NCBI GenBank assembly: GCA_020161975.1
Contig: JAIUNP010000001.1
Coordinates: forward strand, 1-64,000
DNA from: Pseudomonadota bacterium
Lineage (GTDB): Bacteria > Pseudomonadota > Alphaproteobacteria > Rhizobiales > Beijerinckiaceae
Direction of reading: 5' to 3'
DNA: 64,000 nt
Position 1 is the first letter of the stretch. Every line of letters starts with the position of its first letter. Below the pieces are notes generated by a model. The model made no database searches, was not told where the DNA came from, and saw only the letters and a program-made list of their open reading frames with translations. This document shows positions 4,097 to 25,433 of the stretch, one piece after another. The translations under genes and the position numbers were made by a program.

Positions 4097-4666
4097 TCAG
4101 TCCTTCGCGCGCTCCACGTAGGAATTGTCTTCCGTTGCGATCACGACGCGCGTGCCAGCATTGATATGCGGCGGAACCAGCGTGCGGATGCCGTTGGACA
4201 GAATAGCGGGCTTGTAGGACGAGGAAGCCGTCTGGCCCTTCACGACAGGTTCGGTCTCAGCAATTTCCAGCGTCACGTGGCGCGGCAGTTCAACGGACAA
4301 CGGATTGCCTTCATGGATCGACAGGACGCAGGTCATGCCTTCCTGAAGATAGGCCTTCTGCTCGCCCATCGTATCCACATCCACGACCACCTGATCGTAG
4401 GATTCCGGGTTCATGAAGTGGAAGCCTTCGCCGTCTTCGTAGAGGTACTGGAAGTTCAGGTCTTCAACGAAGGCGCGCTCGACCTGCTCGGTGGTGCGCC
4501 AGCGCTCGGAAACCTTCACGCCATCGACGATGCGGCGCATGTCGACCTGCGTGACCGGCGTGCCCTTGCCGGGGTGGAAGTTCTGAGCCGTGAGAACCAC
4601 ATAAAGCTTGCCGTCCACATCGAGAACGTTGCCCTTGCGGACGGAAGAGGCGATGACCTTGACCAT
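4097..4666 (-). CDS. efp: Elongation factor P
   Basis: A 189-residue translation factor that rescues ribosomes stalled at polyproline stretches. It has a KOW-like N-terminal domain (about 1-60) and two OB domains. The modification loop reads FHPGKGTP with Lys34 at its tip, the residue beta-lysylated by EpmA/EpmB, and both enzyme genes are encoded immediately next door in the opposite direction. The start at 4666 (MVKVIASS) has AAGGAAA upstream. An in-frame upstream extension to 4735 was rejected because EF-P starts at this point in the family. Confidence 0.97.
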
Positions 4667-4834
4667 GATATTTCCTTGTAACCGCGTGATGCGCGTCGTA
4701 GAGGACTGCCGACAGGACGGCTCCGGAAGACGCAAAATTTCGAGTTCGGGGCGGAACTACCCTAAATTCACGCGGAAAGCCAGTCCCCGCACGACTTTGA
4801 CCGTCAAAGACGCCAGAAGCAAAAGAAAACGGAC

Positions 4835-5893
4835 ATGACGCAACCCGGCCCGAAGCCCTCCCCCTGGTGGAACCCCGCCGTCCATGCGGACCGGCGTCCC
4901 TTCCTCATGGGGCGCAACCGGATTCAGGCCGCGTTTCGCGCCCGCTTGAGCGCACTGGATTTCATCGAGGTGGATACGGCGGCCCTTCAAGTCTCGCCCG
5001 GCAACGAAACCCATCTTCATGCCTTTGCCACCGAAATCATCGGCAATGACGGCATCGGCCACAAGGCCTACCTCCACACCTCGCCGGAATTTGCGGCCAA
5101 GAAACTGCTGGCGGCGGGTGAACCCCGGATCGCCTGCTTTGCCCATGTCTGGCGCAATCGCGAACGCGGGCCACTGCATCACCCCGAATTCACCATGCTG
5201 GAATGGTATCGCGCCGGGGAAGGCTATGAGGAATTGATGCGCGACTGCGGCTGGATGCTGGCGCTCGCCGCCGAAACCGCAGGCACGGCGCGCTTTCGTT
5301 TTCGTGGCATGGAATGCGATCCCTTTGCCGAACCGGAGCGCCTGTCGGTGGCCGATGCCTTCGACCGCTTTGCAGGCATTGACCTTCTGGCCTCCCTCTC
5401 CGCCGATGGCGAAACCGACCGCGATCATCTGGCGGGTGAACTTAAAAGGGCAGGCATTCGCATGGCCGAGGATGACAGCTGGGCCGATCTTTATAGCCGT
5501 GTGCTGGTGGAAAAGATCGAGCCGCATCTCGGTCAGGGTCGCCCGACCCTTCTCGACGCCTACCCGGTGTCGGAGGCAGCGCTGGCCCGCCGAAGCGCCA
5601 GCGAACCGCGCACGGCCGAACGCTTTGAGCTTTATGCCTGCGGTGTTGAACTCGCCAACGCCTTTGGCGAATTGACCGACCCTGCGGAACAGCGCCAGCG
5701 CTTTGTCCACGAAATGGCCGAGAAACAGCGCATCTATGGCGAAAGCTACCCGATTGACGAAGACTTTCTGGACGCCCTTGCCGTGATGCCGGAAGCCAGT
5801 GGTGCGGCCCTGGGCTTTGACCGCCTCGTCATGCTGGCCACTGGCGCCACTCGTATCGAGCAGGTCATGTGGGCACCCGTTGCGGAATTCTGA
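4835..5893 (+). CDS. epmA: EF-P beta-lysylation ligase (lysyl-tRNA synthetase paralogue)
   Basis: A 352-residue class II synthetase-like enzyme (GenX/PoxA/YjeA). It activates beta-lysine with ATP and attaches it to Lys34 of EF-P. It has only the catalytic core of LysRS and lacks the N-terminal anticodon-binding OB domain. Motif 2 lies around FAHVWRNRERGPLHHPEFTM, and motif 3 is the C-terminal GAALGFDRLVML. The gene faces efp across a 168-bp divergent gap, and its stop is one base before the epmB start, so the pair is surely an operon. The third modification enzyme, EpmC, was not seen. Confidence 0.95.
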   Translation: MTQPGPKPSPWWNPAVHADRRPFLMGRNRIQAAFRARLSALDFIEVDTAALQVSPGNETHLHAFATEIIGNDGIGHKAYLHTSPEFAAKKLLAAGEPRIACFAHVWRNRERGPLHHPEFTMLEWYRAGEGYEELMRDCGWMLALAAETAGTARFRFRGMECDPFAEPERLSVADAFDRFAGIDLLASLSADGETDRDHLAGELKRAGIRMAEDDSWADLYSRVLVEKIEPHLGQGRPTLLDAYPVSEAALARRSASEPRTAERFELYACGVELANAFGELTDPAEQRQRFVHEMAEKQRIYGESYPIDEDFLDALAVMPEASGAALGFDRLVMLATGATRIEQVMWAPVAEF

Positions 5894-5894
5894 C

Positions 5895-6938
5895 ATGGAT
5901 ACACCCCGCACGCTGAAAAGCGCCTATGACCTGATCGCCGCCGGACTTCTCGAGGAGAGCCGCCACAATGAGGCCGCCCGCGTGGGCGAACGTTACGCGA
6001 TTGCCGTCACGCCTGCGATCGCGGAGTTAATCGACCGCGCCGATCCCGCCGACCCAATCGCACTGCAGTTTATTCCGCAGGCCGATGAACTGGTGACGCG
6101 TCCGGAAGAACGGGATGACCCGATTGGCGATCACGCTCATACGCCGATCAAGGGCATCGTCCACCGTTACCCGGATCGCGTGCTTCTGAAGGCCGTGCAT
6201 GTCTGCCCGGTTTATTGCCGCTTTTGCTTCCGCCGCGAAATGGTCGGCCCGGATGGAGACGGCACGCTTTCGGGCGAGGAACTCGAAGCCGCCCTTGCCT
6301 ATATCGCCGCCCATGACGAAATCTGGGAAGTGATTCTGACCGGCGGTGATCCGCTCGTTCTGTCGCCGCGCCGTCTCGCCGCGATCATGCAGGGACTGGC
6401 CGGGATTGACCATGTGCGCATCGTGCGCTTCCATAGCCGCGTTCCGGTGGCCACCCCGCAGGCGATCAATGGTGAGCTGATTGAAGCCTTGAAGGCGGCG
6501 GGCAAAACGGTCTGGGTTGCCCTTCACGCCAACCATCCGAAGGAACTCACCGCCAAGACGCGCGCCGCCTGCGCCCGGCTGATTGATGCAGGCATCGCCA
6601 TGGTCAGCCAGACCGTGCTCCTCAAGGGGGTGAATGACGATCCCGCCATTCTCGGTGCCCTGATGCGCGGCTTTGTCGAAACCCGCATCAAACCCTACTA
6701 TCTCCATCATCCCGATCTTGCGCCCGGAACGGGACATTTCCGCATGGATATTGCCGAGGGTCAGGCCATTGTTGCCGCCCTGCGGGGCCAATATTCGGGC
6801 CTGTGCCAGCCGACCTATGTGCTCGATATTCCCGGCGGCCATGGTAAAACGCCGCTGGCCTCCGCCACAACACAATCTATTGGCGAGGGTTGTTGGTCCG
6901 TTTCCGACTATCGTGGCGAGCGTCATATCTGGCCATGA
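5895..6938 (+). CDS. epmB: EF-P (R)-beta-lysine synthase, radical SAM lysine 2,3-aminomutase
   Basis: Converts (S)-alpha-lysine to (R)-beta-lysine for EF-P modification. Length is 347 residues. The radical-SAM cluster motif is CPVYCRFC, with Cys104, Cys108 and Cys111 (CX3CX2C). The C-terminal IPGGHGKTP carries the likely PLP lysine, Lys318. The short length, without the C-terminal extension of catabolic clostridial aminomutases, and the tight coupling to epmA (one-base gap) favour the EpmB role over lysine fermentation. The start ATG at 5895 sits directly after the epmA stop. Confidence 0.95.
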   Translation: MDTPRTLKSAYDLIAAGLLEESRHNEAARVGERYAIAVTPAIAELIDRADPADPIALQFIPQADELVTRPEERDDPIGDHAHTPIKGIVHRYPDRVLLKAVHVCPVYCRFCFRREMVGPDGDGTLSGEELEAALAYIAAHDEIWEVILTGGDPLVLSPRRLAAIMQGLAGIDHVRIVRFHSRVPVATPQAINGELIEALKAAGKTVWVALHANHPKELTAKTRAACARLIDAGIAMVSQTVLLKGVNDDPAILGALMRGFVETRIKPYYLHHPDLAPGTGHFRMDIAEGQAIVAALRGQYSGLCQPTYVLDIPGGHGKTPLASATTQSIGEGCWSVSDYRGERHIWP

Positions 6939-7118: not shown

Positions 7119-7370
7119 ATGAACGAAACGATCCGTAATCTTCTCGCAAAAGTCGGTGGTCTTCCGGTCGCCGCAGACGGTCTGGCCGATGAGGCGGATC
7201 TCTACGCGGCGGGGCTTTCCTCCTTCGCGTCCGTTCAGCTCATGCTCGGCCTTGAAGAGGCGTTCGACATCGAATTCCCCGACAGCCTTCTGAACCGCAA
7301 GTCTTTCGCCAGCATCGCCGCCATTGAAAAGACGGTGGCTACGATCCTCTCGTCGCAGAAGGCTGCCTGA
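7119..7370 (+). CDS. Acyl carrier protein of the amino acid:carrier-protein ligase system
   Basis: An 83-residue four-helix carrier protein. The phosphopantetheine site reads AGLSSFASVQL instead of the usual GxDSLxxVEL, so Ser35 aligns with the modified serine and the preceding Asp is replaced by Ser. The fold is otherwise normal. It is the first gene of a compact run (stop at 7370, next start 7372) ending in DUF1839. Related Agrobacterium and Bradyrhizobium carrier proteins are charged with small amino acids by a synthetase-like ligase, and that ligase is two genes downstream. Its partner role here is therefore well supported, although the final acceptor is unknown. Confidence 0.88.
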   Translation: MNETIRNLLAKVGGLPVAADGLADEADLYAAGLSSFASVQLMLGLEEAFDIEFPDSLLNRKSFASIAAIEKTVATILSSQKAA

Positions 7371-7371
7371 T

Positions 7372-8550
7372 ATGAACGCCCATGTAAAAACCCCCGTCGC
7401 ATCGGTGAGCGAGCGCATTGCCCGCGCCGCTGCCGTGGCCGCTCGCTATGCCGATGATGTCGACCAGAAGGGTCGCTTCCCGGCAGAAGCCATGCAGGCA
7501 CTCAAGGACGAACGCCTGATGGGCGTCCAGATCCCGGTCGAACTCGGCGGCGAAGATACGCCGATTGCCGAAATCGCCGAACTCTGCTCGATCCTCGGTC
7601 AGGCCTGCGGTTCCACGGCGATGATTTTCGCCATGCACCACATCAAGCTTTCAAGCCTTGTCGAGCATGGCATGGGTGCCGAATGGCACCGTGGCTTCAT
7701 GCGCCGCATTGCCGACGAGCAGCTTCTGCTCGGCTCCGCCACCACCGAAGGCGGCATCGGCGGCAATCTGCGCAACTCGATCTGCGCCATTGAAGTCGAA
7801 GGCGACATCTGCCGCCTGGAAAAGGAAGCGACCGTCATTTCCTACGGCGTTCAGTCGGATGCCATCCTGATCACCTCGCGCGCCCATAAGGACGCCGCAT
7901 CGTCGGATCAGGTCATGACGGTCTTCCTGAAGGACCAGTACACGCTGGAAAAGACGCATGGCTGGGATACGCTCGGCATGCGCGGCACCTGCTCGGAAGG
8001 CTTCCTCTTCAAGGGCGAAGCACCCGCCGAACAGATCATTCCCGAACCCTTTGCCGAAATCGCCGCCCACTCCATGCTTGCCATGGCGCACCTGCTGTGG
8101 AGCGCGCTGTGGTACGGCATCGCAGTTGACGCCGTGCACCGCGCCCAGGCTTTCGTGCGCGCCGCCGCCCGCAAGTCGCCGGGCCAGACGCCTCCGGGCG
8201 CGCTGCGTCTCGCCGAAATCTCCGGCAAGCTGCAGATGATCAAGACGGATATCATTCATGGCGTTCGCCAGTATGAAGAGATCCGCCGCAACCCGGAAAG
8301 CCTGACCATGGGCTTCCTGATTGCCATGAACAACACGAAGCTCTCCACCTCGACCGCCATCATCGACATCGTCGGCCAGACGCTGTTGATCAACGGCATC
8401 ATGGGCTTCAAGAACGACACGCCCTTCTCGGTCGGTCGTCACCTGCGCGACGCCTATTCGGCCCAGCTGCAGATCTCGAATGAACGTATTTTGATGAACC
8501 AGTCCACCATGTTGCTCGTCAACAAACAGGACATGAGCCTTCTGGGGTAA
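7372..8550 (+). CDS. Acyl-CoA dehydrogenase-like flavoprotein
   Basis: A 392-residue FAD enzyme with the three acyl-CoA dehydrogenase domains: a helical N-terminal domain (about 10-120), a beta domain (about 125-225, including [12 protein letters not shown]) and a helical C-terminal domain. By eye, the canonical C-terminal catalytic EGT position reads near LQISNER, so a Glu base is not obvious there. It starts one base after the carrier-protein stop. In pyrrole and related pathways, homologues oxidise aminoacyl groups tethered to carrier proteins. Acting on the aminoacyl-carrier made by the next gene's product is the likeliest role, by context only. Confidence 0.8.
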
Positions 8551-8554
8551 CAAG

Positions 8555-9463
8555 ATGGATATGCAGGTTTCCTTTCTCGACCGTCTCTTCGATTCCGGTC
8601 TTCTCATTGATACCGGTGTTGAAGGCCTTTATGGCCGCTCCGGCGAATTCGAGGGCGTCATTGCCGCCTTCGAGCGCCTGATCGACAGCATCGGCGGTGC
8701 CGATGGCGCCGAAGCCATTCGCTTCCCGCCCGGCATGAACCGCGCCTTCTTTGAACAGAGCGGCTATATGAAAAGCTTCCCGCAGCTGGCCGGAACGGTG
8801 CATTCGTTCTGCGGTTGCGAGCTCGATCACATCAGCCTGCTGAAATGCATGGAAGAGGGCGGCGACTGGACCGAAGGCCAGAAGGCGACCGAAATCGTCC
8901 TGACCCCGGCAGCCTGCTATCCGCTCTACCCGACGGTTGCCAAGCGTGGCGAATTGCCGATGACCGGCGGCCTCTATGACCTGCAGTCCTACTGCTTCCG
9001 TCATGAGCCCTCCAACGACCCGGCCCGCCAGCAGCTGTTCCGTATGCGCGAATACGTGCGCATGGGTACGCAGGCACAGGTCACCGAGTTCCGTCAGCAG
9101 TGGATGGATCGTGGTGTGAAGATGATGGAAGATCTGGGCCTCAGCGTCGAGATCGATGTCGCCAACGACCCGTTCTTCGGTCGCGCCGGCAAGCTTCTTG
9201 TCAACAACCAGCGTGACCAGAACTTGAAGTTCGAGCTTCTGATCCCTGTCACCTCCGAGGTGAAGAAGACGGCCTGCATGAGCTTCAACTACCATCAGGA
9301 TTCGTTCGGCCTGAAATGGGGCCTGAACCTTGAAGGTGGTGAAGTCGCCCATACCGCCTGCGTCGGCTTCGGTCTGGAACGCATCGCGCTGGCGCTGTTT
9401 GCAGCTCACGGCCTCGATACGAAGCTGTGGCCCGCCAATGTCCGCAAGGTTCTTTGGGGCTGA
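8555..9463 (+). CDS. Amino acid--[acyl-carrier-protein] ligase (class II synthetase-like)
   Basis: A 302-residue homologue of the catalytic core of atypical seryl-tRNA synthetases without a tRNA-binding arm. The published family (Agrobacterium, Bradyrhizobium) activates small amino acids such as glycine or alanine and loads them on a carrier-protein phosphopantetheine. Motif 2 is [20 protein letters not shown], and motif 3 is [12 protein letters not shown]. Cys121, Glu166 and Cys269 are the probable zinc ligands; they are spaced like the Cys/Glu/Cys set of the Bradyrhizobium enzyme as I recall it. The gene sits between the flavoprotein (4-bp gap) and DUF1839 (4-bp gap), so all are co-transcribed with the carrier protein. 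Confidence 0.92.
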
Positions 9464-9467
9464 GACA

Positions 9468-10454
9468 ATGACGAAAATGCTCTCGATGTCTGCGGTCTTT
9501 CCGTGGCTCGATCAGGCGGCCTACGTGCCGCATGCGCTTCACTCACAGGAGCGCATGTGGCCGGAGACCAACTGCTATGTCGACCTGTGGATCGAGGTTC
9601 TGGCGAGCCTCGGCACCCACCCGCAAGCCATGCTCGGCTTCACGCTGACGCAGGACTTTGAGGGCGACCAGTTCACCTTCTTCAAGGTGCCGCTGGAAGA
9701 CATCGAGGCGCTTTACGGCATTCGCGTCACCGAACTGGCGATCTTCGACAATGTGGAAAACCACATTGCCGTGCAGATTGCCCGGGGCCGCCTGTGCATC
9801 GTCGAGATGGACAGTTTCTACATGCCCGACACGCAGGGCGTGGCCTATCGCGCCGAACACGGCAAGACGACGGTCGCCATCAACCGCATGGATGTGGAGG
9901 CCAAGCGCCTCGAATACTTCCACAATGGCGGCTACTTCCGCCTTGAGGGCGATGATTTCGACGGACTGTTCCAGCATCACCTGACGGAAACCGACCCGCC
10001 TTTCCTGCCTTACACGGAATTTGCCAAATTCCCGGGCCGCAACGCCTCGCCGGACCATCTGCGAAGCGTGGCCGACCGGCTGTTGCGCCAGCATTTCGCC
10101 CGTCGACCGCAGGAAAACCCGATTGCCGCCTTCGCGGAAGTCTTTCCGCGTCAGGTCGAAGCGGTGGCGGAACGGCCCTTCGCCTTCTTCCACAAATACG
10201 CCTTCAACACGCTGCGTCAGGTCGGTGCCAACTTCGAGCTTCTGGCAAGCCATCTCGACTGGCTGGCTGAGAACGGGGCCCTGAAGACGGAAGCCGATGC
10301 GGCCCGCGCCATCGCCGAGAACGCCAAGAGCGTCCAGTTCCAGCTGGCCCGCGCTGTGACCCGCAAGAAGTTCGAACCGCTGGCAACGGCTCTTGAACCG
10401 GCCGTCGAAAGCTGGGACAAGCTGATGCAGGGTCTGGAGCGCAAGCTGGGGTGA
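9468..10454 (+). CDS. DUF1839 family protein, candidate aminoacyl transferase
   Basis: A 328-residue protein matching the DUF1839 proteins that accompany amino acid:carrier-protein ligases. The first 145 residues contain Cys36 (in ETNCYVDLW), His131 (in YRAEHGKTT) and Asp142 (in INRMD). This order and spacing fit a papain-like Cys-His-Asp triad, as in the BtrH-type transferases that move acyl groups off carrier proteins. The C-terminal half is helical. By context it could move the aminoacyl group from the carrier to a final acceptor. The triad is read by eye and the function is inferred, not known. Confidence 0.75.
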   Translation: MTKMLSMSAVFPWLDQAAYVPHALHSQERMWPETNCYVDLWIEVLASLGTHPQAMLGFTLTQDFEGDQFTFFKVPLEDIEALYGIRVTELAIFDNVENHIAVQIARGRLCIVEMDSFYMPDTQGVAYRAEHGKTTVAINRMDVEAKRLEYFHNGGYFRLEGDDFDGLFQHHLTETDPPFLPYTEFAKFPGRNASPDHLRSVADRLLRQHFARRPQENPIAAFAEVFPRQVEAVAERPFAFFHKYAFNTLRQVGANFELLASHLDWLAENGALKTEADAARAIAENAKSVQFQLARAVTRKKFEPLATALEPAVESWDKLMQGLERKLG

Positions 10455-10489: not shown

Positions 10490-12940
10490 ATGGACTTCCA
10501 TTGGCCCGACAATCAGAAGACATTGGATGACGGCTGGACGCTGACGCAAAGCGAAGCCGACGCCTATGCCATGCCGTCTGATATCCCGGCAACGCTTGTT
10601 CCTCTTTCCGCCACGGTCCCCGGCACCGTCGCAAAGGCGCTGCAGCAGGCAGGTCGCTTCGACCCCGCCCGCCCGGACCCGCTCGACGGCTTCGATTTCT
10701 GGTATCGCACGACGCTGAATGAGACGCCCGGCCCGGCCACGCTTCAGTTTGACGGTCTTGCCACCGTGGCCGAAATCTTCCTGAACGGCGAGAAGATCGC
10801 GACAAGCGAAAGCATGTATGCGCCGCTTTCGGTTGAGGTGACGCTCACCGGATCGGACGAACTGGCCATCGCCTTTCGCGCGCTGAAACCCCGTCTCGCT
10901 CGCAAGGGGCCGCGCGCCCGCTGGCGTCCGCAGATGATGAGCGAGCAGGGCCTTCGCCTGTTCCGCACCACGACGCTGGGCTACATGCCCGGCTGGTGCC
11001 CGGACGTCCATGCTGTCGGCCCATGGCGGCCCGTCCGTCTCATCCGCCCCGAGGCCGCCTCGCTGGCCGATCTGGAAATCACCGCAACGCTGGACGAAAA
11101 CGGCAACGGCCGCCTCATCGTCTCGTTTGAAGGGGCCGCCCCGCAGAGGTTGAAACTCCTTTGCGAAGGCCATGAGGCAAGCTTTGAACTCTCTCGCGAA
11201 GGCCGCTCAACCGCCACGCTGACCCTTCCGGTGGTCAAGCCGTGGTGGCCCGCCACCCATGGCGAACCGGCTCTTTACGACGTTCGCTTGAGCCTCAACG
11301 GCAAGACAATGCCGCTTGCCCGCACCGGGTTTCGCACCATCACGGTGGATCGCGGGGTGGATGGCAAGGACTTCGCCCTTCTCGTCAACGGCGTGCGCAT
11401 TTTCTGCCGCGGTGCCGTCTGGACCAATGCCGATATTGTCGGCCTGCCCGGCGATCGCGCGGCTTATGAACCATGGCTGAAGCTGGCAGCCGAAGCGGGC
11501 ATGAACATGATCCGCATCGGTGGCACCATGGCCTATGAAAGCCCGGATTTCTTCGCGCTCTGCGATGAACTCGGCCTTCTGGTCTGGCAGGACTTCATGT
11601 TCGCAAACTTCGATTATCCGGCGAAGGATGAGGCTTTCATCGACCTCGTGCGTGCCGAGGTCGGCACTTTCCTGCAAGCCACAGCGGCCTCGCCGTCCCT
11701 GGCCATTCTGTCCGGTGGCAGCGAGATGTACCAGCAAGGTGCCATGCTCGGCCTGCCGGAAAGCACATGGAAGACCGCCCTGACAACGGAAATCCTGCCT
11801 GCCCTGTGCGCGGCCCACCGCCCGGATGCGGTCTATGTGGAAAATTCGCCGTCAGGCGGCGCGCAACCCTTCTTCGTCAATGAAGGGGTGGGCCATTATT
11901 ACGGCGTCGGGGCCTATTGCCGCCCGCTCGATGATGCCCGCCGCGCCAGCGTGCGCTTTGCCTCGGAATGCCTGGCCTTCGCCCATGTGCCGCAGCAGAA
12001 AACGCTCGATGCGCATCTGCCCGTCGCGGCGCTCCATCACCCGGACTGGAAGGCCCGTGTGCCGCGTGACCGCGGCGCAAGCTGGGATTTCGAGGATATT
12101 CGCGAACACTATCTCGGCCTTCTTTACGGCGAAGACCCGGTGCGTCTGCGCCGTGAAAATCCGGCCCGCTATCTGGATCTTTCCCGCGCCGTGACCGGCG
12201 AAGTGGCGATTGAGACGTTCAGCGAATGGCGACACAGCGGCTCGACCTGCAACGGCGCTTTGATCTGGACGCTTCAGGATCTTCTGCCCGGTCCCGGCTG
12301 GGGCGTGATCGACGCCACCGGCACGCCGAAACCCGTCTGGCATGCGCTGAAGCGGGTGCTGAAGCCGGTGAGCGTGGCCTTGACGGACGAGGGCGTGAAC
12401 GGCCTTTCACTCCATGCCATCAATGAAACACCGCAAGCGCTGGACGTGAGGATCGAAGTTTCGGCCTTGCGCGATGGACGCCAGCCCGTCGTATCCGGCG
12501 CGCGCGACCTTCACATCGATGCCCGTCAAACGCTGGAAATTCCCTGCACCGATCTTTTCGGCGCGTTCTTCGATACGAATTATGCCTACCGCTTCGGCCC
12601 GCCCTCACATGAGGTCGTCGTGGCGCGTCTCGTTCTCGGTGAGGAAACGATGGCCGAGGCTTTTCACTTCCCGCTGGGTCGCAGCCGGGCGCTCTATCCT
12701 GGCAAGATCGCCGCAGCGCTCCAACAGGACGAGACCGGCTGGTCGCTGCTTCTGGAAGCCGATACGTTCCAGCAGTCGGTTCAGATTCTGGTGGACGGTT
12801 TCAGTGCGGCGGAAGACTGGTTCCACCTGTCCCCGAACGCGGTCAAGGTGATTGCCCTTCATCGTCTCGATGGAACCGCAAACGATGTCCGCCCCAGCGG
12901 CGAAGTCCGCAGCCTGTCCGGTTCAGCCACACATTTTTAA
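10490..12940 (+). CDS. Glycoside hydrolase family 2 protein, beta-mannosidase-like
   Basis: An 816-residue enzyme with an N-terminal jelly-roll sugar-binding domain (about 40-190), an immunoglobulin-like domain (about 190-300), a TIM barrel (about 300-620) and a C-terminal beta domain. The probable acid/base is Glu412 in LSGGSEMYQQG, where the usual Asn before it is Ser. Glu493 in RFASECLAF is the probable nucleophile. No signal peptide is visible, so it is likely cytoplasmic. It follows DUF1839 by 35 bases and probably belongs to the same operon. It may trim or remodel the saccharide that the locus makes; the substrate is unknown. Confidence 0.85.
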   Translation: MDFHWPDNQKTLDDGWTLTQSEADAYAMPSDIPATLVPLSATVPGTVAKALQQAGRFDPARPDPLDGFDFWYRTTLNETPGPATLQFDGLATVAEIFLNGEKIATSESMYAPLSVEVTLTGSDELAIAFRALKPRLARKGPRARWRPQMMSEQGLRLFRTTTLGYMPGWCPDVHAVGPWRPVRLIRPEAASLADLEITATLDENGNGRLIVSFEGAAPQRLKLLCEGHEASFELSREGRSTATLTLPVVKPWWPATHGEPALYDVRLSLNGKTMPLARTGFRTITVDRGVDGKDFALLVNGVRIFCRGAVWTNADIVGLPGDRAAYEPWLKLAAEAGMNMIRIGGTMAYESPDFFALCDELGLLVWQDFMFANFDYPAKDEAFIDLVRAEVGTFLQATAASPSLAILSGGSEMYQQGAMLGLPESTWKTALTTEILPALCAAHRPDAVYVENSPSGGAQPFFVNEGVGHYYGVGAYCRPLDDARRASVRFASECLAFAHVPQQKTLDAHLPVAALHHPDWKARVPRDRGASWDFEDIREHYLGLLYGEDPVRLRRENPARYLDLSRAVTGEVAIETFSEWRHSGSTCNGALIWTLQDLLPGPGWGVIDATGTPKPVWHALKRVLKPVSVALTDEGVNGLSLHAINETPQALDVRIEVSALRDGRQPVVSGARDLHIDARQTLEIPCTDLFGAFFDTNYAYRFGPPSHEVVVARLVLGEETMAEAFHFPLGRSRALYPGKIAAALQQDETGWSLLLEADTFQQSVQILVDGFSAAEDWFHLSPNAVKVIALHRLDGTANDVRPSGEVRSLSGSATHF

Positions 12941-12953
12941 AGCTTGGCGCGGT

Positions 12954-14696
12954 TTAAAACCGCAAGGCCAGCGCCTGCACCTCATCGCGAAACGCATCGC
13001 GGGCGCAAGCAGGCGTCAGATTGTGGTCGGCATTGGCGACAGTCTTGAACGTGGCCATGCCGTACTCGCCCAAACGCTTGCCATCGGCACCAAAATAGCT
13101 GGCAAAATGATCAAGCCCGGGATCGGTCTCGCTATAAAACAGCGAGAGCGGGGCCTTGCGTTCGGCAATGGCGTGGAAGGCTGCATGAACGGCGCGACCT
13201 TCCTGCGTGTAATGGCGAATGAAGAAGCCAACCGGAGCAAAGAGCCTGCGGCAGGTCGCCCGCGAAATATTCAGGAACGCACCGATGAGGTCGATCTCGC
13301 CTTTCAACAGGCGGCTGACCGTCGACATTTGCAAAAGGCGCTGGCCATAGTCACCCAGTGCCCGAGGTGTTGATCGCAAGCGCGCATCAACATCATTGTC
13401 CGGGTTCCAGTGGAAAAGCGGCGGATTGGCAATCGCGGCCCCGGCCACGCGCCCATCTTCGACAGCCCCCTGAAATGCCACATAGGCACCCGAGCAACGG
13501 CCAGCCACGACAATGGGACCAGCGCCCTGCGCCTTCAGGAAATCGAGTGCCGACGAAAGATCGCGCTGCGGACCGTCGGTATAAAGCACCTGATCCGGCG
13601 CGCCGGGCGCGGGCGGGCTATCGGCGACATTGGCATTGTCAAACCGCAGGGAGACAATGCCCTGGCGCGCCATATCCCGCGCCATGGTGGCCGTCGCCCT
13701 TCCCCACCCGGCATGCCGGTCATAGGCCGTCGACAGGAACAGAACCGTTGCGCCCTTCGGCTCGCAAGCCGGTCGGGTCAGCACACCGTAAAGCGGCGAG
13801 CGATCACCGAAGCGCACTGCGGTCTCAATGAAATGTCCGCCATCAAGCGAAGGCGCTTTCGGCAGGGGAGAATTGACGACGGCTCCACACTCTTTCGGTG
13901 CGTGCCCCGCCACCCAGTCCGCCACCGCATGAGCAAAGGCCTCTGGCACAACGGAAACGGCAGGGTTGGCCGTCAGCGCATCATAGCCATCGAAAGGAAA
14001 GCGTTCGACATCCGTGCCCAGCGCGGCAAGGAAGGCGAAAAACTCGCTGTCCGAGGTCCGGGACGCGCGCTCGCCAATCAGAACCGGGCAGGCCGGCGCC
14101 AAAGGCATTTTCATCAGGTCCACACCGCGAAGCCCGGATGCGATTTCGTCGGGCAGGACAAATCCGGCAATGCTGACGCCCTGATGCTCGCGATAATCAC
14201 TGGAAAGCCCCAGACTATCGTCAACCATCCGCGACATGGCGGAAAGTTCGCGCAGGAAGAACCGCCCCGAGGTCACGGGCGCAAGGGCCGCAATGCCTGC
14301 CAGACCTTCAACCCGTGCGGCCACCTGCATGGCAAGCATGGCACCCAGCCCCTGACCGACGAGGAAGATGCGGGACACGCCGGAAAGACGTCGAAGGGTT
14401 TGGGTCGCTTCGACAACGGCATTTTCCCAGAGCGCAATTCCGCCCTCGGAAAAGTCGGGGTCAAGCGAATCGCCGGTCCCCGGCAAATCGAAACGCAGCG
14501 ACGCAATGCCATGCTTGGTCAGGCGTTCGGACATGACGCGCCAGAACTTGCGCACGCACATATCTTCAAGGGCCCAGGGGCTGACGAAGAGAACCGCCGC
14601 ATCGACACCATCGCGAACCGGCGCATAAAGCCCGGCCATGCCCGAGAAGGACACCGGCACCGCGGCCTCGGAAAAATGATCCTGCAAACTGGTCAT
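12954..14696 (-). CDS. Tandem alpha/beta hydrolase, exosortase-associated-hydrolase-like
   Basis: A 580-residue protein with two alpha/beta-hydrolase domains (about 15-265 and 290-580). In the first, the nucleophile elbow reads G-Q-G-L-G, so Gly116 occupies the nucleophile position and the domain looks inactive. In the second it reads G-R-C-S-G, placing Cys401 there, with Asp525 (SETDPG) and His559 (NADHN) completing a possible Cys-Asp-His triad. Similar paired hydrolases are found in exosortase-type polysaccharide loci, but no exosortase is present here. The start at 14696 overlaps the flippase stop by four bases (ATGA). It is convergent with the GH2 gene. Confidence 0.8.
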   Translation of the reverse strand: MTSLQDHFSEAAVPVSFSGMAGLYAPVRDGVDAAVLFVSPWALEDMCVRKFWRVMSERLTKHGIASLRFDLPGTGDSLDPDFSEGGIALWENAVVEATQTLRRLSGVSRIFLVGQGLGAMLAMQVAARVEGLAGIAALAPVTSGRFFLRELSAMSRMVDDSLGLSSDYREHQGVSIAGFVLPDEIASGLRGVDLMKMPLAPACPVLIGERASRTSDSEFFAFLAALGTDVERFPFDGYDALTANPAVSVVPEAFAHAVADWVAGHAPKECGAVVNSPLPKAPSLDGGHFIETAVRFGDRSPLYGVLTRPACEPKGATVLFLSTAYDRHAGWGRATATMARDMARQGIVSLRFDNANVADSPPAPGAPDQVLYTDGPQRDLSSALDFLKAQGAGPIVVAGRCSGAYVAFQGAVEDGRVAGAAIANPPLFHWNPDNDVDARLRSTPRALGDYGQRLLQMSTVSRLLKGEIDLIGAFLNISRATCRRLFAPVGFFIRHYTQEGRAVHAAFHAIAERKAPLSLFYSETDPGLDHFASYFGADGKRLGEYGMATFKTVANADHNLTPACARDAFRDEVQALALRF

Positions 14697-16225
14697 GCAA
14701 CAGCCCTCCGGGCATGCGGCGCGACAAAATGAACGATGGCGATCAGGCCACGTTTCAGCTTGCCGGGGAAACGGTCCGCCAGTTTCATCAGGGCATCGAC
14801 ATCGCTCTCGGGAACGGCCTTGAACAGGCGAAGTGCGAGAATATAGGCCACCGCCCCGGCCGGGATCGCCAGAATGAGGCCGACAAGACCGCCGAACAAC
14901 AGAATATTGGCTTCCGCCGCAAGACCGCAAACCATGGCAGCGAGGGTCACAGGCAAAAGCGTGCGGAAAACATGGCCGATCGAGCCATCGAATTCCATGG
15001 CTGACGCCATGAACAGGCACATGGCAACAAAACTCACGGCGCGGACCACAGCAGCCCCGGGGCCGCCATAGAGCGGCACCAGCAGAATGCAGCCGCCGAC
15101 AATGATCGCCGAACCGATGAAATCCACGAGAAGGCGCGTTTTGATCTGCCCCTGCGAGAACAGATACTGCGTGCAAAGTTGCGAGAACACGAAGACCGGC
15201 GTCGCCAGCGCGAGAATGGCGACGATCATTCCAGCCGGCGTGAACTCAGGCCCGAACACCGATGTCACCAGCTCCTGCGAAATGGCGGCAAGCCCAAAAC
15301 TCATCGGCAGCGTGATATAGGCAAGGCTGCGGACCACAACTGCGAACATATCGATGGGCAACCGCCCCTGACCCGACGCTTCGAGCTTTTCGGAATAGTA
15401 GGGCATCAGACTGCCGGTCAGCTGCACCGGCAGCTGCAAGGCCAGGTTCGCAAGCGTCAGCGCCACGGCGTAAAAGCCGACATTTTCCTTGTCGAAAAAC
15501 CGCTGCAGGAAGAGAATTTCCAGCCGCGTCAGGAAAATCGACGTGATGACATATTCAAGCGACAGCAGAAAAGACGAGGCGGCGAGCGTGCGCCGGTGCA
15601 TGCCGCACGGATTGGCGCGCGTCAGGAAAATCCGCACGCTGTAAATAAAGGGAGCGATCTGCCCGAGCAGATAGCCGATCAAGGCCGCCTCGATGCTCTT
15701 GAAGACCACCGCGCCGACGACCACGCCGACAAGCTGCATGAGGGCGGCAATCACCGTGATCTGGAAAAACGGACCCAAACGCTGTTCACCGATCAGATAA
15801 TTCTTGGAATAGGACCCGATCGACTGGATGATGAAGAGAACGCCCGTCAGGGTCGCCACCATCGGCGTCATGTCCAGCCAATGGTCTTCATCCAGACGCC
15901 CGACAACGAAGAAATAGGCCGCGGCAAGCAGAAGCGTCGCCGCCACCACAGGCACTTGCAGATAGGCCGCAAAGCCGCGCCGGTCCTTTTCGCTGACACC
16001 CTGAACGGTCAACTGCGGCAGGATGCGCAACAGCATGACGCCCGTGCCCAGTTCCGCAATCAGCGAACCCGTCGTCACCAGCATCTGCGAGAAGGCAATC
16101 GTGCCATTGGCAGCCGGGCCCAGCAGGCGGGCGGCCACAATCGAACAGGCAAAGCCCGTCAACAACTGGGCAAGCCCGGAGGCCGCGTTAAGGGCCGAAT
16201 TGGCCAGAATGTTCTTGCTGCTCAT
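14693..16225 (-). CDS. Polysaccharide flippase (MOP superfamily, Wzx-like)
   Basis: A 510-residue integral membrane protein with about 12-14 hydrophobic helices throughout. It begins NILANSALNAASGLAQLL, the typical first helix of Wzx/O-antigen flippases. Such proteins move undecaprenyl-linked repeat units to the periplasmic face of the inner membrane. The start at 16225 has GGTGG upstream. It is downstream of two glycosyltransferases on the same strand and translationally coupled to the tandem hydrolase. With the Wzy-like polymerase and co-polymerase encoded divergently, it completes a Wzx/Wzy-type export set. Confidence 0.9.
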   Translation of the reverse strand: MSSKNILANSALNAASGLAQLLTGFACSIVAARLLGPAANGTIAFSQMLVTTGSLIAELGTGVMLLRILPQLTVQGVSEKDRRGFAAYLQVPVVAATLLLAAAYFFVVGRLDEDHWLDMTPMVATLTGVLFIIQSIGSYSKNYLIGEQRLGPFFQITVIAALMQLVGVVVGAVVFKSIEAALIGYLLGQIAPFIYSVRIFLTRANPCGMHRRTLAASSFLLSLEYVITSIFLTRLEILFLQRFFDKENVGFYAVALTLANLALQLPVQLTGSLMPYYSEKLEASGQGRLPIDMFAVVVRSLAYITLPMSFGLAAISQELVTSVFGPEFTPAGMIVAILALATPVFVFSQLCTQYLFSQGQIKTRLLVDFIGSAIIVGGCILLVPLYGGPGAAVVRAVSFVAMCLFMASAMEFDGSIGHVFRTLLPVTLAAMVCGLAAEANILLFGGLVGLILAIPAGAVAYILALRLFKAVPESDVDALMKLADRFPGKLKRGLIAIVHFVAPHARRAVA

Positions 16226-16338
16226 CAATCCACCGGGAAGGGCTTTGGCGAAGCCGAAGCGAAATCTTGTCCCGCAATCTGGCATGGCGAGCTTAAGATT
16301 TGGCTGACCGAGAGCGTAAACGCATGTTTACCTGGGGC

Positions 16339-17436
16339 TTAGGCGAAGAGAACCCGCGCCGTTTCCACCCAGCTCATCACTTCATTGGTGTCGATGATGC
16401 TGCGGTCAAACTGCTTTGCCGCCTCAAAGGCTGCAAGGATCGACGCTTCGTTGCCCGGCTGATAACCGCACACATGGGCGCGCCCGGCTGCTGCAAACAG
16501 CGGTGCCACGATGGGCAGGCGGCAATAGGTGTACTGGATCATCTTCAGGCTGGACTGGCTGAGATAGCTGGCGCCCTTGCCATCCTGATAAGGCGCAATC
16601 CCGATATCGGCATGGCGAATATAACCGGCAACGGTTTCAAACGGCGTTTCGCCATGGGCGATCACATTGGCAACGGGCGTATCAAGCTGCGCCTTGCGGC
16701 CAAACAGGTGAAAGGTCCAGTCCGGGTTGGATCGCGCCAGCGTCGTCAGCACATGCGGATCAAAGAGCATGTCCCCCACGCTCACCGCATTGCGCGCACT
16801 CGTGAAGGGATTGCGCTCAGCCCTGTCGAACACCTCCGTGGAAATGCCGTGACGCAACAGCAGGATCGGAACACCGCCCGGCATATCCTTGCGCTGGTCT
16901 TCCGCCAGAATGTGGATGAGGTCATAATCCTTGGCAGAGGCCTTCAGGACATCTTCGAAACACGGATGCGCGCCAATCGTCTGCAACTGATCGGCAGCGT
17001 GATAGATAATCTTTGCCTTGGGCGCGAGCTTTCGAAGAATCGGCGTCAACAAGGCGCCAATCCCGCTTTCAACGAGAATATGCGTGTAATCGGGAAGGCG
17101 CTTGCGCGCAGCCTCCGGCAGCAGCATGCCATAATGGCGAAAGACCAGTCCACTCAACCAGTTCAAGAGGCGATATCGCATCGCGAAGGGGTGAATGAGG
17201 CTGACCCAGATATATTCGTCGCGCAGGTCGGATAGCGTTACCCAGCGATTGCAGGTGCGCGTGCGGGCATATTCCCAACGCCCTTCGCTGGAAAACCGGC
17301 TGACCTGACTCAGACGCAACGACAGGAAATCGGCGCGATCACCCTCGGCATTCAAGGCATCGGCCAGAAAATGCAGATCGACTTTGCGCGGTGCCTCGGC
17401 AAAATGCTGCCCGGTAACGAAAAGGACGTTTCTCAA
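16339..17436 (-). CDS. Glycosyltransferase, GumK-like (GT70) or related GT-B
   Basis: A 365-residue cytoplasmic GT-B protein. The N-terminal half holds the acceptor domain (RNVLFVTGQHF... with the HILVESG strand). The C-terminal half has RHGIST, SVGDMLFDP and FGRKAQLD elements like the nucleotide-sugar domain of GumK, the xanthan glucuronosyltransferase, and ends with a SLKMIQYTYCRLPIVAP donor-binding segment. It overlaps the upstream GT4 gene by four bases. Likely it adds one sugar, perhaps glucuronate, to the lipid-linked repeat unit; sugar specificity cannot be read from the sequence. Confidence 0.8.
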   Translation of the reverse strand: MRNVLFVTGQHFAEAPRKVDLHFLADALNAEGDRADFLSLRLSQVSRFSSEGRWEYARTRTCNRWVTLSDLRDEYIWVSLIHPFAMRYRLLNWLSGLVFRHYGMLLPEAARKRLPDYTHILVESGIGALLTPILRKLAPKAKIIYHAADQLQTIGAHPCFEDVLKASAKDYDLIHILAEDQRKDMPGGVPILLLRHGISTEVFDRAERNPFTSARNAVSVGDMLFDPHVLTTLARSNPDWTFHLFGRKAQLDTPVANVIAHGETPFETVAGYIRHADIGIAPYQDGKGASYLSQSSLKMIQYTYCRLPIVAPLFAAAGRAHVCGYQPGNEASILAAFEAAKQFDRSIIDTNEVMSWVETARVLFA

Positions 17437-18653
17437 TGGATCGGCCCTTCACTCGGCACCAGAGACAAGCCAACCGTTTCATCAGGAATGACGCGATCAT
17501 AGATCCCGCAATACTGATCCGTCACGCCGTTCCAGGAATAGATCTGCGCTTGTGCCATCAGCGTCTTGCGCAATAGGGCACCACCCGCTTCCACCGCATC
17601 AAAGGCATCGGCCAGCGCCTTGGCAGCCTTTTTCGGGTCCGTGAAATCGGTGATCGTTACACAATCATGGCGCTCGGCAAGAAGCCGGTAGGCCTCATTG
17701 GCGTGCAAGACGGGCACAAGCCCCGCGCTCATGCCCTCGATGGCAACAAGGCCAAAGCCTTCATATTCTGAGGCCGAAGCCAGAATGGAGGCACCACCGA
17801 TCAACCCGGCAATCCCCGGATTATCGAGATTGCAGTGAACGCTGACCCGGCCCTCAAGACCGCGTTCGGCGATGGCGACGGAAAGCGCTTCTTCGGTGAT
17901 GTCACCGGGAACGCCAATCACATCCAGATGCCAGTCCGGGTGCTCACCGGCCAGAACGCGCATGGCGTCAAGCAGTCGATCAATGCGCTTGTTGACGGAA
18001 AACCGACCGATGGTGACCATGCGGCGCGTTGCCGTCTGGCTGGCGCAATCGGCAAACTTGGCCGTATCGGCCCCGTTTTCAACGGTCACCGTGCGTCCGG
18101 GCGCAATCTTCGCAAACAGCGCCGTGTCTGACCGGCTGCAGCCGATGATATGGGCATAACCAAGCGCCGACATCCGCGTCAGCGTCTGGAACCAGATCTT
18201 CTTGATGAGGGCGAATTTCGTCGTGTGGAAGAAGCCGCCATGCGTCGTTGCCACCATCGGACGGCGATGCAGCAGCCAGCCCAGCGAAAGCGCATCAAAG
18301 AAGAAGTCGATGGCGTGAACGTGGATGAGGTCGGCATCACGAACATGGTGGAAGACGGACGGCGCCAGCGGGTATCGGGTCGAACCGCTCCACGGCACGC
18401 GCACGATTTCAATCCCTTCATGCACTTCAAAAGCAGGCAGCTTCGTTTCAGGCTTGAGGTAAAGCCTGTCGAGCGTGACAACGCGCACGCGATAGCCGCG
18501 CGCAATCAGCCCCCGACAGAGGTTCATCACCACGTCTTCGAGGCCGCCACGATTGGGGTAAAACTGCCGCACGACATGAACGACCAGCGGCCCCTTGGCC
18601 TGAGGATAGACCCGCGTCGGTCCCGTATGCTGCAACTTGGCGGTCAACGTCAC
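17433..18653 (-). CDS. Glycosyltransferase family 4
   Basis: A 406-residue GT-B glycosyltransferase, first gene of the minus-strand run GT4-GumK-like-flippase-tandem hydrolase. The N-terminal domain has VRQFYPNRGGLEDVVMNL, the glycine-rich acceptor loop of GT4. The C-terminal Rossmann domain has TIGRFSVNKRIDRLLDA, and SASEYEGFGLVAIEGMSAG carries the EX7E donor-binding motif (first Glu in EGFG, second in IEG). The start is GTG at 18653 with CAGGGTGA upstream. It is divergent from the co-polymerase gene across 346 bases. Confidence 0.9.
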   Translation of the reverse strand: MTLTAKLQHTGPTRVYPQAKGPLVVHVVRQFYPNRGGLEDVVMNLCRGLIARGYRVRVVTLDRLYLKPETKLPAFEVHEGIEIVRVPWSGSTRYPLAPSVFHHVRDADLIHVHAIDFFFDALSLGWLLHRRPMVATTHGGFFHTTKFALIKKIWFQTLTRMSALGYAHIIGCSRSDTALFAKIAPGRTVTVENGADTAKFADCASQTATRRMVTIGRFSVNKRIDRLLDAMRVLAGEHPDWHLDVIGVPGDITEEALSVAIAERGLEGRVSVHCNLDNPGIAGLIGGASILASASEYEGFGLVAIEGMSAGLVPVLHANEAYRLLAERHDCVTITDFTDPKKAAKALADAFDAVEAGGALLRKTLMAQAQIYSWNGVTDQYCGIYDRVIPDETVGLSLVPSEGPIH

Positions 18654-18999
18654 GTGTCACCCTGAAACGCGGTTAAGTATATTGGGGGGAACCCACTCAC
18701 CCGACCTATATCGGCCAGTCTTTAAAATCCCCTTACGAGCAACCTCTTCGCCCCGGTGGCTAACGGGTTTCAAGGCGCGCGAACGCCGCTGGCGTCATCA
18801 TCCGCAACATTAGCATTCAAAGGCTAAATGCGAGATTCATGTCGTTTTTTTGGCCCCGTGTGCACTGCACCTGAAACAAACCGGCGCTTTAGCAATCGTT
18901 AATCATATTCTGCAAGATTGCGGGCAAGATCGTGCAAAACTGCGGCCAAGCGGGCTGCTTTTGCCGGTTCGGGTACCGGGTCGCGTATTGGACAGCCGC
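18654..18999. promoter_or_regulatory. Divergent intergenic region between the two polysaccharide operons
   Basis: A 346-bp gap between divergent starts (GT4 leftward, co-polymerase rightward), so both promoters must lie here. It is more A/T-rich than its surroundings, with several short inverted repeats (for example around 18770-18800). No confident -35/-10 pair or operator was found, and no plausible coding frame. Confidence 0.4.
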
Positions 19000-21021
19000 A
19001 TGGAAATCGACATTTTTCAGTTGCCGGGCATATTGAAGAAGCGGGCGCACTACATCGTGCTGTCCGTGATTGCCTGTGTCGCGCTGGCATTCCTGTATCT
19101 GTCAACGCTGGTTCCCACCTACCGCTCCTCCACCGACATTCTTCTCGATCCTCAGGGCCTTGCAGAGCGCCGCGATCTCATCGTCGCAGGCTCCTCGCCG
19201 CAGGAACAATCGAGCCTTGAGAGCCAGATCTACATCGTCCAGTCGCGTGATGTCCTCAACGACGTCATCGACAAGCTTTCGCTTGAACAGGACCCGTTCC
19301 TGATCAAGGCCGCCAAGTTTTCGGACAACGCCACCCCCGAGATGCGCAAGGACGCTATCCTTGGTGCGCTGGTCAAACGCCTGAAGGTGGAGCGCGCCGG
19401 TCAGTCCTTCATCATGACCATTTCGGCCGAGCATTCCGATCCGGAAAAAAGCGCCCAGATCGCCAACACCATTGCCCAGACCTATCTCAGCAAGATCTCC
19501 GATACCCGCGTTGAAGCCAACCGTCGCGCTGGCGAAAGCTTCCAGTCGCAGGCCGGCGAACTGCGCGAACGCGTGCTGAAAGCAGAGCTTGCGGTTGAGG
19601 ATTTCAAGGCTGAAAACGGCCTGACGACGACGGGTGAGCAAGGCGGTTTGCTGATCAACCAGCAGGTTTCCGGCATCAGCGAGCAGCTGACAGCAGCTCG
19701 TGTCGCGGAAGAACAGCAAAAGGCCAATTTCGACCAGGCCCGCAATCTGACGGTGGCCGCCATTGAAGCAGGCGCCATTCCCGAAGCGGCCCAATCCCAG
19801 AGCATCGAACTTCTGCGCTCGCGCTACACCCAGTTGCTGGAGCGCGAGGCCGAACTGGCCGCGGCCCTTGGCACCAACCATCCGCAGATGCGCGCCGTGC
19901 GTTCGCAGCTGGCCGGGGTGCGGCAGTCGATCAACGCCGAAATTTCCCGCCTGCGCGAAAGCATGCGCGCCAGCTATGAGCGCGCGGCGGCCAACACCAA
20001 GGCCATTTCCGACCAGCTCAACAAGCTGACCAAGTCCAGCTTCGACAAGGGCGAGGCGCTGACCCGCATGCGCCAGCTGGAAAGCGAGGCCGATGCGGTT
20101 CGCACCATCTACAAGACCTTCCTCGGCAAGGCGGAGGAACTGGGCCAGTCCCAGAGCGTCAACAATAACAACTCGCATGTGATTTCGGTCGCTGTACCGC
20201 CCTCCGCACCGCCAAGCGGCATCAAGAAGATTGTTCTGGCCGCCGCCGCGATGTTCGGCGTTGCGCTGGGCAGCGTACTGGCCGTGCTGCGCGAAATTCT
20301 GGGCAGCAATGGCAGCGGTGCCCGCACGCATCTGCTGCGCTCCGGCATTCCGATCATTGCCAGCTTCCCGGCCGAAACCAAGACAAGCAAGAGCAGCCGT
20401 ATGGGCGCGCTGATGGGCATGGGTCGCACGCCCAAGCGCAGCGGTCGTCGCGACGATCACCGTCGCCGCGAAATCGGCATGCTGCGCATCGCCCACCTGC
20501 TTTTGAACCACTTCGGTGGCCGGCAAATTCCCGCAGCCATCATTTTCATGGCGCCGGGCGAGGATGAGGACGAAGGCCTAGTGGCGGAAGTGGCCGAGCT
20601 TCTGGCAAGCCTTGGCCAGAACGTGGCCTATGCGCCCGGTCAGCTGTCTCGCACCGCCCGCCAGAGCCAGCGCCCGGTTCGCCCCGTTCGCGGCATGCTC
20701 GCCACCCGTCAGGATCTTGACGAGGATGAGGATCAGTTCCTCCTTCTCGGTGATCGTCTGGTTTACGAGCGACTGTCAGGCGAAACGTCATCCTCTCGCT
20801 ATGGTCAGCGCCTGATGCCGCCCGCCGATATCGTCCTGATCAATGCCTGCGGCACGGCCGCCTGCGAATTCTTGCCGACGCTTCTGGAAAGCGGCGATGC
20901 CATCGTGCCGATCACCAATCTTGATCTGGTCGACCGCAACGACGCCGAAGACATGCTCTACACACTCGATCCGTTCCGGGAGAAGGTTCCGGGAATGGTG
21001 GTCATCGGTAAGGACGCATGA
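19000..21021 (+). CDS. Polysaccharide co-polymerase (Wzz/GumC/ExoP type) with degenerate kinase domain
   Basis: A 673-residue inner-membrane chain-length regulator. It has a first transmembrane helix at about 18-38, a long periplasmic coiled-coil domain (about 40-405), and a second transmembrane helix at about 410-432 preceded by the Pro-rich PPSAPPSG motif. The cytoplasmic C-terminus corresponds to a BY-kinase, but its Walker A loop reads APGEDEDEG (518-526) with no Lys-Ser/Thr. Walker A' reads YAPGQ, the Walker B strand IVLINACG has no terminal Asp, and there is no Tyr-rich tail. It overlaps the polymerase start by four bases. The start at 19000 has GGA nine bases upstream; a longer N-terminus is possible. 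Confidence 0.9.
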   Translation: MEIDIFQLPGILKKRAHYIVLSVIACVALAFLYLSTLVPTYRSSTDILLDPQGLAERRDLIVAGSSPQEQSSLESQIYIVQSRDVLNDVIDKLSLEQDPFLIKAAKFSDNATPEMRKDAILGALVKRLKVERAGQSFIMTISAEHSDPEKSAQIANTIAQTYLSKISDTRVEANRRAGESFQSQAGELRERVLKAELAVEDFKAENGLTTTGEQGGLLINQQVSGISEQLTAARVAEEQQKANFDQARNLTVAAIEAGAIPEAAQSQSIELLRSRYTQLLEREAELAAALGTNHPQMRAVRSQLAGVRQSINAEISRLRESMRASYERAAANTKAISDQLNKLTKSSFDKGEALTRMRQLESEADAVRTIYKTFLGKAEELGQSQSVNNNNSHVISVAVPPSAPPSGIKKIVLAAAAMFGVALGSVLAVLREILGSNGSGARTHLLRSGIPIIASFPAETKTSKSSRMGALMGMGRTPKRSGRRDDHRRREIGMLRIAHLLLNHFGGRQIPAAIIFMAPGEDEDEGLVAEVAELLASLGQNVAYAPGQLSRTARQSQRPVRPVRGMLATRQDLDEDEDQFLLLGDRLVYERLSGETSSSRYGQRLMPPADIVLINACGTAACEFLPTLLESGDAIVPITNLDLVDRNDAEDMLYTLDPFREKVPGMVVIGKDA

Positions 21022-23433: not shown

Positions 23434-23668
23434 CGGATCATCCGTTGCTCTTGCAGGAGGAGACAGCATGTCTCTATTCTTGCCCTTATGAAGGCGAATG
23501 AATACGACAAGGTTACTTTCGTCCGAAATTTTCCTGCCATCACCACCTCTTGATCGTTGCGGACGCTCTCCAGCGATCATGATCGGGCCTTGTGACAAGG
23601 CCAGACTCGCCTCGATCCGGGTCACAAGGCAAGTTTTGTTTCCTTAAATGAATATTATTTTCCCTTTA

Positions 23669-25410: not shown

Positions 25411-25433
25411 GTGACCGCGGAAGGGCCAAGATC

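Follow-up and report, generated by a model that had tools for sequence, protein, structure and literature searches.

A conserved five-gene cassette in Beijerinckiaceae may pass a carrier-bound amino acid to sugars of a surface polysaccharide

What happens to an amino acid after a relative of a tRNA synthetase has loaded it onto a carrier protein? The biological role of amino acid:carrier-protein ligases was called unknown in a 2022 review (PMC9437257), and the question is raised anew by a locus at 7119-10454 of the 64,000-nucleotide stretch analysed here, hereafter the window (positions 1-64,000 of contig JAIUNP010000001.1, assembly GCA_020161975.1, Beijerinckiaceae, Rhizobiales). Four plus-strand genes encode a carrier protein of 83 aa (CP; 7119-7370), an acyl-CoA-dehydrogenase-fold flavoprotein of 392 aa (7372-8550; PF02771 and an AlphaFold2 model), a seryl-tRNA-synthetase-like amino acid:carrier-protein ligase of 302 aa (8555-9463), and a DUF1839 protein of 328 aa (9468-10454; PF08893, 460 bits), a putative papain-like, CP-dependent acyltransferase. 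A preliminary description of this DNA had correctly recognised these four genes and their tight packing, with gaps of 1, 4, and 4 bases, and had overlooked a fifth member, a GH2 glycoside hydrolase of 816 aa (10490-12940, plus strand; PF22666/PF00703) that begins 35 bases after DUF1839. The five genes are interpreted here, with moderate confidence, as a pathway in which an aminoacyl group is built on a carrier protein and attached to a sugar, either in a surface polysaccharide or in a precursor of one. Supporting evidence includes a CcbD-type fold and an invariant site in DUF1839, the linkage of the five genes, a ligase clade with 99/100 support, a GH2_14-type glycosidase site, and polysaccharide genes as neighbours.

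The idea itself is older than this analysis. Attachment of an amino acid to a sugar amine was predicted for this cassette in a 2010 note in proof in Biol Direct, which named the DUF1839 gene Atu2574 as the transferase (PMC2922099), and the preliminary description, unaware that the hypothesis was in print, had rediscovered it. New here are the structural match of DUF1839 to CcbD, CtaG, and AziU3, the strict linkage with GH2 and its GH2_14-type site, the absence of the dehydrogenase glutamates from the flavoprotein, the joint loss of C39 and a KTT motif in DUF1839, and control statistics. A literature search on DUF1839, the Atu locus tags, and aminoacyl carrier proteins returned no experiment on the cassette beyond the ligase work.

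The linkage was assessed in 297 genomes drawn from the window's order, 49 of which, including the window genome with its two copies, had a DUF1839 match; these supplied a set of 49 DUF1839 loci, the window locus itself excluded. A second set comprised 80 named loci and a third comprised loci from phylum-level hits, and because a class sample of 142 genomes contained no further DUF1839 genome, wider statistics were drawn from the order and the phylum. The order and strand CP-flavoprotein-ligase-DUF1839-GH2 were the same in 47 of the 49 order-sample loci, the other two being cut by contig ends, and the set was complete in the same order and on the same strand in 78 of the 80 named loci; the arrangement is therefore not due to chance. 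GH2, searched independently, was present in 48 of the 297 genomes, every one a DUF1839 genome (both genes in 48, DUF1839 alone in 1, GH2 alone in 0; Fisher p 7e-55), and in the sole exception the DUF1839 gene lies ∼330 bases from a contig end. The ligase was found in 49/49 DUF1839 genomes. In 15 other genomes a ligase scores above the cut-off and DUF1839 is missing, usually with CP and flavoprotein retained and GH2 absent. In the ligase tree, a single branch with 99/100 support separates all DUF1839-linked ligases from the rest. Together, the co-occurrence counts, the ligase-only genomes, and the tree identify ligase, CP, and flavoprotein as a core to which DUF1839 and GH2 are an inseparable addition.

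Ligase-flavoprotein sets lacking DUF1839 and GH2, mostly with a CP, were also collected (L087-L101); some adjoin an AMP-binding enzyme, an SDR, and a TPP enzyme, and they show the ligase-flavoprotein core in a distinct role, for the most part away from polysaccharide genes. The window genome, an assembly of 465 contigs that is 79% complete, holds a second complete five-gene copy on another contig (C289, locus L005). The window ligase nests among ligases of another family (f161) and the L005 copy branches elsewhere, a placement that suggests either transfer or a binning mix-up.

The CP matches NCBIfam NF005480 at 117 bits (cut-off 72) as well as PF00550, carries its phosphopantetheine serine, Ser35, in the motif GLSSF, with Ser invariant in 139/139 relatives, and has Atu2571 (2jq4) and 4h2w_C as nearest solved relatives. 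The ligase, encoded in the same operon, in which the CP gene lies 1 base upstream of the flavoprotein gene, scores 502 bits against the curated model NF005479 (cut-off 357), is up to 84% identical to relatives within the order, and is closest among solved proteins to the amino acid:CP ligase structures 4h2w (E 3e-94) and 3mey (E 4e-89). Residues C121, R149, E151, E166, C269, and R276, corresponding to class II motifs and Zn-ligand-type Cys/Glu positions, are invariant in 19 sequences. Ligases of this kind are expected to load one particular amino acid, Gly or Ala. Loading of the carrier has been shown by others for homologous ligases, and glycine is tabulated as the likely amino acid (PMC9437257); the amino acid loaded here is probably likewise small, namely glycine. 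In the proposed first step, the ligase would activate this amino acid and transfer it to the phosphopantetheine of CP.

Four divergent relatives of the ligase stand apart (L102, L103, L104, and L105 in genomes G178, G420, G397, and G244). They score ∼150 bits, below the cut-off, have ∼100 extra N-terminal residues, and adjoin an MBOAT O-acyltransferase, with a short carrier protein also present in 3/4; the layout resembles Dlt, but the loader is tRNA-synthetase-like.

An AlphaFold2 model of DUF1839 built with 42 sequences (pLDDT 85.9, pTM 0.86) has only three full-length matches in the PDB, namely AziU3, CcbD, and CtaG, with Foldseek E values of 1e-7 to 6e-4 and VIA Z scores of 15.7-18.1 over 271-288 of 331 residues; the next row scores 8.1. 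The last of the three, CtaG, is a carrier-dependent amide-forming enzyme. In the model, C39 opens helix 39-50, at the catalytic-Cys position of the core helix, and C39, H134, T137, and H155 are invariant in 130/130 relatives (codons 9573-9575, 9858-9860, 9867-9869, and 9921-9923; residue numbers count from codon 9459, and 3 is subtracted for the ATG at 9468). A modelling study had already assigned DUF1839 to the papain-like superfamily and its active site to the C(T/S)H type (PMC10318531, 2023). CcbD works by Cys ping-pong chemistry: its cysteine accepts proline from the carrier and hands it to the amino group of a thio-octose amino sugar (PMC12945683). Transfer of the aminoacyl group from carrier to saccharide, as proposed in the preliminary description, is the best-supported reading, and the structural match to an enzyme that makes an amide from prolyl-CP and an amino sugar speaks for it. 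The polysaccharide context on which that description also drew is not universal.

A profile search of DUF1839 against PDB sequences returned only chance-level matches, such as vinculin helices; hhalign against BtrH homologues aligned the two cysteines with each other and kept the LP motif in register, but at a non-significant probability of 0.5-1.5%; and a Pfam scan matched PF08893 only, with no match to BtrH_N (PF14399). Because sequence homology to CcbD or BtrH was not detected, DUF1839, judged from its model, is described as an acyl-transferring enzyme that probably works like CcbD, not as a member of the CcbD family. The conservation pattern has one exception: in two genomes, C39 and the KTT motif are both missing from the in-cassette DUF1839, and a second copy in the same genome has both intact. 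No other copies lacking C39 were seen. L214, L216, and L219 belong to genomes that encode DUF1839 twice, with the Cys and KTT absent from the copy inside the cassette, and an active/inactive pair is possible.

Assignment of the flavoprotein is more equivocal. Its AlphaFold2 model (pLDDT 80.5) matches both acyl-CoA dehydrogenases and class-D monooxygenases, and the fold search does not separate the two (Z 34-36 for both): dehydrogenases score 34-35 and DszC 36.2, a tie, and the monooxygenases TdsC, KijD3, MsuC, and DszC and the nitrososynthase DnmZ rank level with dehydrogenases. For the catalytic glutamate, Glu376 of MCAD and Glu254 of IVD served as the reference sites. Residue 368, aligned by HMMER to the MCAD-type glutamate, is Ile in 143/143 sequences; at the isovaleryl-CoA-dehydrogenase position, Ala or Ser (Cys or Thr in 3/144) precedes an invariant His. 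By alignment, then, the flavoprotein has no catalytic Glu at either of the two sites where genuine acyl-CoA dehydrogenases carry one. A non-standard oxidation, for example mono-oxygenation, probably fits better than desaturation. A mono-oxygenation-type role was also guessed in 2010 (PMC2922099).

GH2 aligns to beta-mannosidase structures with E values down to 1.9e-84. Its acid/base E412, within S411-E412, and its nucleophile E493 are kept in 126/126 sequences, Ser replaces Asn before the acid/base in 124/126, and G344, positioned by alignment to the Bacteroides-type beta-mannosidase structure 2vjx, stands where beta-mannosidases have Trp (Gly in 98/126, otherwise S, P, or A). Both changes, SE for NE and Gly for His/Trp/Glu near C2, mark subfamily GH2_14, in which the two tested members are slow beta-galactosidases without detectable beta-mannosidase activity and whose site, it was argued, may accommodate substituted substrates (PMC12243196). 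With both marker residues present, the window GH2 has, as read from the alignment, a GH2_14-type active site. No evident signal peptide was seen at its N-terminus by eye.

These components suggest a sequence of steps. Following loading, the flavoprotein would oxidise the CP-bound aminoacyl group, with an N-hydroxylation-like mono-oxygenation likelier than alpha,beta-desaturation. The acyl group would then pass to Cys39 of DUF1839 and on to an amine, for which an amino sugar is the likeliest source; the fold and the catalytic Cys suggest this by comparison with CcbD in celesticetin synthesis. The modified sugar, whether precursor or lipid-linked, would enter the neighbouring Wzx/Wzz polysaccharide route, and GH2 could trim or recycle substituted glycosides in the cytoplasm. 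Others have shown carrier loading for homologues, and gene linkage and conservation are observed here; transfer by DUF1839, the amino-sugar acceptor, the oxidation, and the polymer destination are inferred. A more specific version, in which amino sugars of exopolysaccharide are decorated with an oxidised (e.g. N-hydroxy) glycyl amide that is made on CP and checked by the cytoplasmic GH2, is speculative and quite improbable; we know of no such substituent of exopolysaccharide.

The polymer destination is suggested by the neighbours. A Wzx-type flippase (14693-16285; PF13440/PF01943), a GumK-like glycosyltransferase (16339-17436; PF22059, 2.7e-52), and a GT4 glycosyltransferase (17433-18653; PF13439/PF00534) lie on the minus strand, followed on the plus strand by a Wzz/Wzc-like polysaccharide co-polymerase (18850-21021; PF02706 and PF13807, with TIGR01005 below cut-off) and a membrane protein that is a Wzy-like candidate by its position after Wzz (21018-22403). 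Of the full Wzx/Wzy/co-polymerase locus claimed in the preliminary description, Wzx, the GumK-like and GT4 enzymes, and Wzz were confirmed, but the Wzy candidate has no Pfam or NCBIfam match; its homologues follow Wzz in L062, L063, L171, L217, and L218. A GH5 glycoside hydrolase (22354-23625, minus strand; PF00150, 2.1e-55) is also present and occurs near the cassette in 9/49 loci.

Across the order, polysaccharide genes (GT4, GT2, Wzx, Wzz, Wzy, or WcaJ) were found within ∼8 kb of the cassette in 31/49 loci against 1/20 random regions from the same genomes, and at least two kinds were present in 26/49 loci and in 0/20 random regions (p 1.4e-5), figures that come from profiles seeded from the same loci and from related loci that are not independent. 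Family by family, the loci with such neighbours numbered 10/10, 11/12, 4/4, 2/2, 1/1, 2/5, 1/4, 0/4, and 0/7. Genes for WcaJ, Wzz, Wzy, or GT4 were present at all six further full-cassette loci taken from the phylum-level hits, and in two Agrobacterium loci inspected closely, only the hydrolase described below was seen and no polysaccharide genes. The association was to stand or fall on whether the set occurs mostly apart from polysaccharide genes; it stood, without being universal.

Between GH2 and the flippase lies a further gene that the preliminary description overlooked, a minus-strand tandem alpha/beta-hydrolase of 580 aa (12954-14696), of which the plus-strand open reading frames 12852-13373 and 13410-14732 are shadows. 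Its first domain lacks a nucleophile, and its second has a Cys nucleophile motif, GRC401SG, with C401 and H558 conserved in 33/33. It lies close by in 32/49 cassette loci and was found in 1/20 random regions of the same genomes. Scores are below cut-off for TIGR03101 (78.6 bits) and TIGR03100 (59 bits), and the comparison with exosortase-A exopolysaccharide hydrolases gave 79-82 bits (cut-off 203) and 59-89 bits (cut-off 168), respectively; on sequence similarity, the protein is a fusion of homologues of exosortase-A-system hydrolases 2 and 1, in that order, related to that group and not a member. Possibly it acts in this pathway as a further acyltransferase.

Two other features of the window adjoin these genes. 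EF-P, EpmA, and a lysine-2,3-aminomutase-like protein are encoded immediately upstream of the cassette (4097-6938), so that in EpmA the cassette ligase has as neighbour a second amino-acid ligase derived from a tRNA synthetase. The EpmA and aminomutase genes are likewise found ahead of the cassette in L035, L036, L038, and L039. Beyond the polysaccharide genes, positions 23730-40638 hold a glutamate-synthase-like set with a type III glutamine synthetase, then folate/C1 genes, as well as an HODM-like oxidative demethylase and a trimethylamine monooxygenase (832 bits), and form a methylated-amine island beside the polysaccharide locus.

Several points weigh against the pathway proposed here. Polysaccharide genes within 8 kb are absent in two families, 0/7 and 0/4, the latter being the window's own. 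No amino-sugar synthesis gene was identified within the cassette, and no sequence homology links DUF1839 to CcbD, CtaG, or BtrH by profile search of PDB sequences or by hhalign. CcbD has its catalytic residues in the order Cys-His-Glu, which seems to be permuted in DUF1839, where PMC10318531 gives C, T/S, H. The redox step is a proposed one, and DUF1839 is a putative transferase.

Could the cassette instead make a small, soluble aminoacyl-sugar, similar to a lincosamide or mycothiol, with the polysaccharide genes unrelated or sharing only a nucleotide-sugar precursor? This alternative is unlikely but has substance: the nearest mechanistic relatives, CcbD, CtaG, AziU3, and BtrH, all act in small-molecule synthesis, a GH2 without an evident signal peptide would meet soluble sugars, and in families f165 and f1 no polysaccharide genes were detected beside the cassette. 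The repeated presence of unrelated polysaccharide genes next to it (WcaJ, Wzx, Wzz, Wzy, and GT4) in 7/9 families, and again in all six extra full-cassette loci, argues against this alternative. Considerably more doubtful is acylation by DUF1839 of a hydroxyl or a non-sugar amine on a lipid, protein, or polyamine, which would yield an ester or a modified lipid in the manner of Dlt and AlmEFG. The divergent ligases of L102-L105, with carrier protein and MBOAT O-acyltransferase in place of DUF1839, lend it some support, but they are a separate lineage without DUF1839 and GH2. The occurrence of GH2 with DUF1839 in 48/49 genomes and never without it points to a glycoside, and CcbD forms an amide on an amino sugar. 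CtaG is amide-forming too.

A role for DUF1839 in editing or hydrolysing aminoacyl-CP, as a cysteine peptidase, amidase, or thioesterase, is very improbable: the papain-like fold and its place in the papain superfamily listing of PMC10318531 are compatible with such an activity, but every full-length fold match is biosynthetic, and peptidases reach only Z 7 or less over ∼150 residues. The original 2010 suggestion that the charged carrier feeds a non-ribosomal peptide, drawn from the title of a PNAS paper of that year that both PMC9437257 and PMC2922099 cite, is the hardest to credit, for although aminoacyl-CP is a standard intermediate of non-ribosomal peptide synthetases, no condensation domain, thioesterase, or synthetase module was found among the annotated neighbours.

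Several known systems resemble the cassette. Atu2571-Atu2575 of Agrobacterium and its rhizobial orthologues have the same genes in the same order, and the window cassette is orthologous to them, with no fundamental difference except that it directly adjoins a Wzx/GumK/GT4/Wzz locus. Lincosamide synthetase (the adenylation domain CcbC/LmbC, a carrier domain, and CcbD/LmbD) likewise joins a CP-loaded amino acid to an amino sugar through a papain-like Cys enzyme, and DUF1839 has the full-length fold of its CcbD. In contrast to that system, the cassette has a tRNA-synthetase relative in place of an A domain as loader, an additional flavoprotein and GH2, a polysaccharide rather than an antibiotic context, and an apparently permuted triad order in DUF1839. 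BtrH in butirosin and CtaG in closthioamide synthesis resemble the proposed DUF1839 reaction in CP-dependent, papain-like acyl transfer to an amine, but share no significant sequence similarity with it. Dlt and AlmEFG likewise place a small amino acid on a carrier protein for decoration of the cell envelope, yet transfer it by MBOAT or other transferases without DUF1839 or GH2, and neither MBOAT DltB nor DltD was found among the cassette and adjacent window genes scanned. In mycothiol and bacillithiol synthesis and in EpmA, a tRNA-synthetase relative forms an amide outside translation, as here, but no carrier protein is involved.

The 2010 idea thus gains a structural and genomic basis specific enough for bench testing, with DUF1839 now a specific candidate for the missing transferase that is testable by a CcbD-type assay. 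If true, the proposed pathway would provide a physiological context for GH2_14 glycosidases and would place a tRNA-synthetase relative in the surface-polysaccharide decoration of plant-associated bacteria.

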